From Nitrososphaerota archaeon (GTDB lineage Archaea > Thermoproteota > Nitrososphaeria > Nitrososphaerales > Gagatemarchaeaceae): a DNA stretch of 46,705 nucleotides. Both the position numbers and the translations under genes were made by a program. Under the pieces are notes generated by a model. That model was given only the letters and a program-made list of their open reading frames with translations, was not told where the DNA came from and searched no databases. This document shows positions 12,955 to 41,633 of the stretch, one piece after another; within the stretch, counting starts at the first letter, position 1; every line of letters begins with the position of its first letter. The DNA is taken from positions 1 to 46,705 of the forward strand of contig JAPCJO010000010.1 in assembly GCA_027886905.1 (NCBI GenBank), read 5' to 3'.

Positions 12955-13269
12955 GGTGGCAGACCCGCCGGCGTTCACCAGCCCGACCTCTCCCAATCGC
13001 GCGCACCGAACGGTCCCGCACGTAGACGGAGCAACGTGGCCGTGTCGCCTTATGGTTGCCCCCTCCCGGATCTCACCAGGTTCGACGATCAAGAGTCAGA
13101 ACCCCTCCTTCGAGGGGCCCGCGCCTCGCGACCGCCTGCTCCGGCGTGTTATCATCCCGCCCGGACGCGTAGGAAAGAGGAGAGCTGGCTTTACCCGACG
13201 GTTACTGGCACTCCATGTAGCCGGTTTGAGTGAAGGAGACGGCTAACCTCCCAGGCCCTACCCGCCACC
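12955..13269 (-). ncRNA. Signal recognition particle RNA (archaeal 7S/SRP RNA)
   Basis: On the minus strand the conserved helix 8 core is present at 13054-13077: GGTGAGATCC, GGGAGG and GGCAACC in order, with flanking GAACC and TAAGG. This is the SRP54/SRP19-binding domain. The 5' domain carries the CAGTAACCG segment (near 13200) expected of the archaeal Alu-type fold. The ends pair over 10 base pairs (GGTGGCGGGT with GTCTGCCACC, counting G-U pairs), giving helix 5 and a length of about 315 nt, normal for archaea. A TATA box lies 26 nt upstream. It targets secretory and membrane proteins to the membrane. The ends are set from pairing, so they may be off by a few bases. Confidence 0.88.
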
Positions 13270-19020: not shown

Positions 19021-19122
19021 GGCTTCCGTCTGTAGCACGACTGGGTAAACCATCCGTTCATCACAGCAACTTTTGGTCGCCTTCGCGGGTGGCCGTTTGT
19101 TGCGTGCAGTACGACGGAAGCC
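19021..19122 (-). ncRNA. Candidate structured RNA, about 102 nt, three-way junction
   Basis: The ends of this stretch are perfect complements over 10 bases (minus strand GGCTTCCGTC at the 5' end, GACGGAAGCC at the 3' end). Pairing continues inward with GTA/TAC and GCACG/CGTGC around small bulges. Inside are two further helices: CAAC/GTTG capping a region with GCC/GGC, and a hairpin around TGG/CCA. A TATA box (GGATATAAG) sits 26 nt upstream of the 5' end, as for a stable archaeal RNA gene. It contains GTGATGA but no CTGA, so it is not a clear C/D RNA; it is not 5S or tRNA. An H/ACA-type guide is possible. Identity unknown. Confidence 0.5.
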
Positions 19123-19143: not shown

Positions 19144-19153
19144 GCTTATATCC
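19144..19153 (-). promoter_or_regulatory. TATA box ahead of the candidate RNA
   Basis: Minus-strand GGATATAAGC is centred 26 nt upstream of the 19122 end of the terminal stem. It touches the stop of pheT. Confidence 0.55.
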
Positions 19154-41496: not shown

Positions 41497-41633
41497 GGGG
41501 ACGTAGCCTAGACAGGCATGGCAACAGGCTCCAGTGGTCAAACGACAAAAAGTTTGATGACACGCTTGCGTGGATGATTTCCCATCGGAGCGGCGATACC
41601 TGTGATCCGTCGGTTCAAGTCCGGCCGTCCCCA
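41497..41633 (+). tRNA. tRNA-Trp(CCA) with a 63-nt intron
   Basis: The acceptor GGGGACG pairs with CGTCCCC. The D arm is GCCTAGACAGGCATGGC, the anticodon stem is ACAGG/CCTGT, the loop is CTCCAGA with anticodon CCA, the variable loop has 5 bases, and the T arm is GTCGG-TTCAAGT-CCGGC. The discriminator is A and CCA is encoded at 41634-41636. Exons are 41497-41534 and 41598-41633, with the intron at the canonical 37/38 position. The mature length is 74 nt. The intron folds into hairpins (TCAAAC/GTTTGA, CACGC/GCGTG, GATG/CATC), and its end GGAGC pairs with exon GCTCC, as a splice structure needs. Confidence 0.93.

Follow-up and report, generated by a model that had tools for sequence, protein, structure and literature searches.

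The 102-nt RNA encoded beside pheT in a Nitrososphaerota archaeon is, as judged from its sequence and predicted fold, a widespread variant of the archaeal box H/ACA guide RNA that is missing from Rfam. It occupies the gap between pheT and the next gene in the window, by which we mean the whole stretch of 46,705 nucleotides analysed here. That this minus-strand RNA belongs to the archaeal box H/ACA class appears very likely. The overall best explanation is a single-hairpin H/ACA guide with its own TATA promoter, a target in the peptidyl-transferase centre (PTC) of 23S rRNA and modification at U2586, and we regard this combination as probable.

On the minus strand, from 19122 to 19021, the 5' part of the RNA reads, in order, GGCUUCCGUC GUACU GCACG CAACAAACGG CCACCCGC GA AGGCGACCAAAAGUUGCU, and the sequence continues to the 3' end as GUGAUGA ACGGAUGG UUUACCCAGU CGUGC U ACA GACGGAAGCC. 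The features are the following.

19146..19151, minus strand: TATA box ATATAA, upstream of the RNA
19021..19122, minus strand: whole predicted RNA gene, 102 nt when the ends of the outer stem are taken as its limits; the conserved unit
19113..19122, minus strand: outer stem P0, 5' half GGCUUCCGUC
19103..19107, minus strand: lower stem, 5' half GCACG; covariation
19093..19096, minus strand: left (5') guide element ACGG, GACGG in other families; complements CCGU(C) of 23S rRNA
19085..19092, minus strand: upper (GA) stem, 5' half CCACCCGC; all 8 helix pairs changed on both sides
19083..19084, minus strand: GA of the K-turn, 5' strand; G.A/A.G pairs opposite 19058-19059 complete the 10-step GA stem
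19065..19081, minus strand: apical stem-loop past the K-turn; stem-forming in family f1 and in few other families, a K-loop elsewhere
19058..19063, minus strand: K-turn strand UGAUGA, invariant in f1; K-loop GAnnnUGA in other families
19050..19057, minus strand: upper (GA) stem, 3' half ACGGAUGG; covariation
19041..19046, minus strand: right (3') guide element ACCCAG; complements CUGGGU of 23S rRNA
19035..19039, minus strand: lower stem, 3' half CGUGC; covariation
19031..19033, minus strand: ACA box, between the lower and outer stems
19021..19030, minus strand: outer stem P0, 3' half GACGGAAGCC, starting immediately after ACA

The fold energy is -41.4 kcal/mol (z -4.3) for the minus strand and -49.0 kcal/mol (z -5.7) for the plus strand of the 102 nt, and in both cases none of 200 shuffled sequences folds as well. 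The lower energy of the plus strand speaks for an RNA encoded there with a three-way junction, the structure that the first-pass annotation had described. However, when the paired columns in the alignment of copies are read on the minus strand, they contain 162 G-U wobbles against 20 A-C mismatches, while the reverse would be expected for a plus-strand RNA; these counts are evidence for the minus strand as the RNA strand. The TATA box, the K-turn and the ACA box are also all minus-strand features. We rejected the plus-strand RNA on the basis of the G-U and A-C counts and consider it extremely unlikely. Minimum-energy folding gives the three-way junction for the plus strand only; on the minus strand, the outer stem encloses one long hairpin with interruptions.

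The RNA contains four helices, namely the outer stem P0, the lower stem, the upper (GA) stem and the apical stem. Both the boundaries 19021-19122 and the perfect 10-bp terminal stem (GGCUUCCGUC/GACGGAAGCC) given in the first-pass annotation proved correct, and the loss of the stems in relatives, which it had named as the outcome that would speak against a structured RNA, was not what we found: the stems are kept with compensatory changes, strongly in favour of the RNA. In particular, the core helices contain 28 double-changed cells in the first set of copies (7.5 in shuffles) and 229 in the wider set (71.5 in shuffles), and in each set none of 500 shuffles reaches the observed value. The hairpin of lower stem, internal pocket and upper stem is thus maintained by compensatory change. 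For P0, 98% of the cells pair in 29 distinct rows, and 44 cells are changed on both sides compared with 7.7 in shuffles (0/2000). Its sequence is wholly different among families (for example, GGCUUUCGUC/GACGAAAGCC, UGCGAUC/GAUUGCA, AUGCCCGC/GCGGGCAU and CCCGCCG/CGGCGGG), and its length is 7-11 bp across copies, with 10 bp in the window; a scripted stem search found a short P0 or none in several f10 copies. In most copies, the upper stem is interrupted at a similar height, either by a bulge (outside f1; A4 column 43) or by a C.A or G.G mismatch (f1; A3 columns 35/71).

Archaeal H/ACA RNAs follow rules of geometry, in which the GA stem counts 10 steps and the ACA box lies 14-16 nt from the pocket (PMC4652768; PMC7991803). 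By hand count in f1, f2, f7, f13 and f16, the GA stem measures 10 from the pocket-closing pair to the second G.A pair, so that the predicted K-turn or K-loop is located 10 steps above the pocket. Exchange between K-turn and K-loop is typical among archaeal H/ACA RNAs (PMC4652768). The ACA box is found as ACA in 46 of the 47 parsed copies and as AUA in the other, and it lies 16 nt below the pocket-closing pair (15 in G060), within the published distance. Two points count against the guide reading here: the distance is 16 nt compared with 14-15 nt in the productive Pyrococcus guides (PMC4652768), and 3' of the ACA there is a stem rather than a free end, since in the gene the ACA precedes the conserved outer stem. 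The outer 10-bp stem probably either protects or defines the ends of the RNA or is a precursor stem; such a clamp could act in precursor processing or end protection, or could be part of the mature RNA.

The first-pass annotation had left the choice between an H/ACA guide and a new archaeal RNA, and the K-turn or K-loop, the 10-step GA stem, the pocket, the lower stem and the ACA box support the former. In addition to what it had noted, the ACA immediately precedes the outer stem's 3' half, the GUGAUGA serves as the K-turn strand, and an rRNA target can be proposed. Its observation that GTGATGA is present and CTGA absent also holds in the RNA (GUGAUGA, no CUGA). A box C/D guide was rejected on this absence of box D and on the reversed order of the K-turn strands, the UGAUGA strand being placed on the 3' side of the upper stem in the sequence and fold. 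By its structure the RNA falls under the definition of archaeal box H/ACA guides, and we file it as a variant of that kind in which two features of the class may be lacking, namely an ACA at a free 3' end and a target gap of 2 nt. It is unusual in the position of its ACA, which a conserved outer stem follows, and in a predicted target gap of 5 nt where 2 nt is the rule.

RNA scans of the window confirmed that the stretch is not a tRNA, 5S or SRP RNA. The Rfam scan proposed with the first-pass annotation gave no family: with the Rfam covariance models, the 102-nt RNA has no meaningful match at E values up to 10 and none at the gathering score, and the archaeal H/ACA entries of Rfam are likewise without a match. 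A limited literature search found no paper on thaumarchaeal H/ACA RNAs. Among the other RNAs of the window, the archaeal SRP RNA (12957-13267, minus strand) scores 82.7 bits, below the Rfam gathering score of 96.5, and is hence missed by the default scan, and a 137-nt tRNA with a long intron (41497-41633, plus strand) is found by Rfam and missed by ARAGORN.

The covariance search of related genomes, also suggested at the outset, recovered the RNA widely in the order and the phylum. When 101 relatives were searched at the DNA level, 40 of 46 same-family genomes had the stretch, at 75-100% identity, and the pieces detected in other families proved to be copies of this RNA. A first covariance model, built from 12 copies, was searched in 400 genomes of the order and found the RNA in 238 of them, covering 51 of 66 genera. 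With a second model, built from 61 copies, the RNA was detected in 115 of 398 genomes from the phylum, and at least 14 of the families concerned lie outside the order. In the six near-complete genomes of family f8 (G052, G066, G075, G083, G090 and G096), neither the covariance model nor the pocket pattern found a copy above chance, and we count this absence against the guide reading. Family f8 keeps the 23S target site described below (read in G090 and G096) and Nop10, and it forms a natural comparison group.

In the order, the RNA usually lies within about 150 nt behind pheT and in the same direction, and nearly all same-family copies are directly downstream of that gene. This arrangement, seen in most families, is what would be expected if the RNA were a cis element, that is, a structured 3' UTR or terminator of pheT. 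However, in some f13 genomes (G057 and G099) structured copies are located 1.9-8.7 kb away from pheT, and therefore the RNA is not merely a 3' UTR. The cis reading is also opposed by the conservation of the pocket residues while the stem sequences change, and by the presence of a TATA box that belongs to the RNA itself; we consider this reading very unlikely. The minus-strand TATA element of the first-pass annotation is ATATAA at 19151-19146, 24-29 nt upstream, and it is conserved in relatives: 35 distinct upstream regions share an AT-rich block at -32 to -26 with 86-100% A/T in GC-rich surroundings. Note that the TATA block and the pheT stop overlap in genus g7, for example at locus L019 (CUAAAAUAG; CTAAAATAG encodes Leu-Lys-stop), so that the conservation of the block there may partly reflect coding constraint; in the window, the block sits behind the stop.

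The pocket strands are the target-specific part of ordinary H/ACA RNAs, and here they are the most conserved part of the molecule. While the stems vary freely, ACGG and ACCCA are present in all 47 parsed copies, which represent 25 families, and ACCCA is found at a constant 13 nt before the ACA box. This conservation is partly ascertained, since the search models include the pocket motif and strongly diverged pockets may be missed; a match in f51 may be such a diverged-pocket copy.

For the target scan, we used the 23S regions of eight carriers or relatives. In these regions, a single site has UGGGU and CCGU at a distance of 2-8 nt, namely CUGGGU-UUAGA-CCGUC in the peptidyl-transferase centre. 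We take CUGGGU to be at about 2579-2584 and CCGU(C) at about 2590-2594 of E. coli, flanking U2585-U2586, partly after PMC2584109. We looked for target changes that would match changes in the guide, but the site is identical in all sequences where it is readable. A CTGGGT/CCGTC pair occurs by chance in 27 of 2000 shuffled rRNAs (1.4%) and with 9 of 1200 permuted guides (0.75%), and a chance of about 1% for some target match is not negligible. As a side observation, the 23S rRNA genes of L119 (G010), L116 (G001) and L108 (G051) are 6.7, 4.0 and 3.8 kb long, respectively, and L108 and L116 have a different sequence immediately ahead of CTTAAGGTAGC, which fits rRNA introns near helix 69/70.

The guide strands complement both flanks of this site, with a gap of 5 unpaired target nucleotides between them where 2 are usual, and even a third such residue is reported to be unfavourable and to lower activity (PMC4652768). 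At guide position 15, 45 of 47 copies have U or C, and one may speculate that its pairing with G2588 would shorten the gap. A different 23S site, GGGUAAG-UU-CCG in the helix 71 region (E. coli ~1950), offers the canonical 2-nt gap; it is present in the 23S rRNAs checked and is the best canonical match for f1, f7, f9 and f13. However, the guide residues that it requires at positions 14-16 vary among families (UUC, UCC, GCU, CCU, GCA and UCU), which is why we rejected it. Moreover, the pairing is broken even in f2 and f10, whose own 23S rRNA keeps GGGUAAG, and the site accounts neither for the A of ACGG nor for the last A of ACCCA, which is invariant. Guidance to this site is thus highly improbable. 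The pocket was, in our reading of its sequence, quite probably made for the peptidyl-transferase strand. As to the product, the canonical 14-nt register presents U2586, and in Haloarcula the equivalent of E. coli 2586 is a pseudouridine ascribed to Cbf5 and an sRNA (PMC2584109). For pseudouridine 2586 as the predicted product, we consider the chances about even.

In the mechanism that we propose, a single-hairpin RNA would be transcribed from its own TATA promoter right behind pheT. L7Ae would bind the K-turn, and Cbf5 with Nop10 and Gar1 would sit on the lower stem, the pocket and the ACA box. The pocket would then pair with the PTC strand of 23S rRNA (ACCCAG with CUGGGU, and (G)ACGG with CCGU(C)), and this pairing would present U2585/U2586 to Cbf5, with pseudouridine at U2586 as the likeliest product. 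The sequences themselves show the structure, the strand, the position of the promoter, the conservation of the RNA and of its pocket, and the complementarity to 23S rRNA; from them we infer transcription, RNP assembly, modification, the exact position modified and what the clamp does. As for the machinery, the Cbf5 gene was found in the genome of the window; Nop10 was not found in this genome, which is 77% complete, a point that we count against the guide reading, and is present in all eight relatives tested.

An alternative is that the H/ACA RNA binds the PTC strand without modifying it and has a role in 50S assembly, as a chaperone or a processing factor, in a way comparable to eukaryotic snR30/U17. 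The enlarged pocket, the 5-nt target gap and the low-lying right duplex, with ACCCAG beside the lower stem, differ from productive guides in this direction, the clamp stem is conserved, and snR30, whose pairing is likewise at the base of its pocket, does not guide a modification (PMC7991803). On the other hand, the 14-nt register places U2586 at the modification position, the A found at position 14 in f6, f15 and f24 is also able to pair with U2585, and the equivalent position is the pseudouridine of Haloarcula; we consider a purely non-modifying role unlikely. Similarly doubtful is the broader idea of a clamped RNP with an enlarged pocket that would grip the flanks of U2585/U2586 as a snR30-like checkpoint or chaperone of PTC assembly, whether modifying or not.

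The modifying guide that we prefer can be compared with several known systems. Experimental validation of archaeal H/ACA guides has covered a small number of Euryarchaea and Crenarchaea (PMC4652768). The RNA resembles the sRNAs Pab21 and Pab91 of Pyrococcus and Afu46 of Archaeoglobus in having a K-turn or K-loop with GA and UGAUGA, a GA stem of 10, a pocket, a lower stem and an ACA. Unlike these single-hairpin sRNAs, it has its ACA before a conserved outer stem of 7-11 bp, an ACA-to-pocket distance of 16 nt, a 5-nt target gap and no Rfam match. HP1, an H/ACA hairpin of Haloferax and Haloarcula, is predicted to direct the formation of Haloarcula pseudouridine 2621 (E. coli 2586) and is reported as a homologue of Pf7 stem II (PMC2584109); the same uridine is proposed for both RNAs. 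Our RNA is regarded only provisionally as distinct from haloarchaeal HP1 and from Pab91 (pseudouridine 2685). As far as they are described in PMC4652768, the H/ACA-like sRNAs of Pyrobaculum (Bernick 2012) share an atypical archaeal H/ACA architecture; they are without a lower stem, while the RNA here has both a lower stem and an extra outer stem. Eukaryotic snR30/U17 is likewise an H/ACA RNA with unconventional rRNA pairing, but it has two hairpins and a role in 18S rRNA processing (PMC7991803), and we claim no homology.

The RNA is spread through the order of this Thaumarchaeota-type genome and through many other families of the phylum, and yet it is not in Rfam; the covariance model can be used for its annotation. 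The guide reading makes a concrete prediction, namely a pseudouridine at U2586 of 23S rRNA in the catalytic centre of the ribosome. It would also make this RNA an exception to two design rules of the class, by which the ACA box stands at a free end and 2 target nucleotides stay unpaired, and this is testable in a cultivable carrier.
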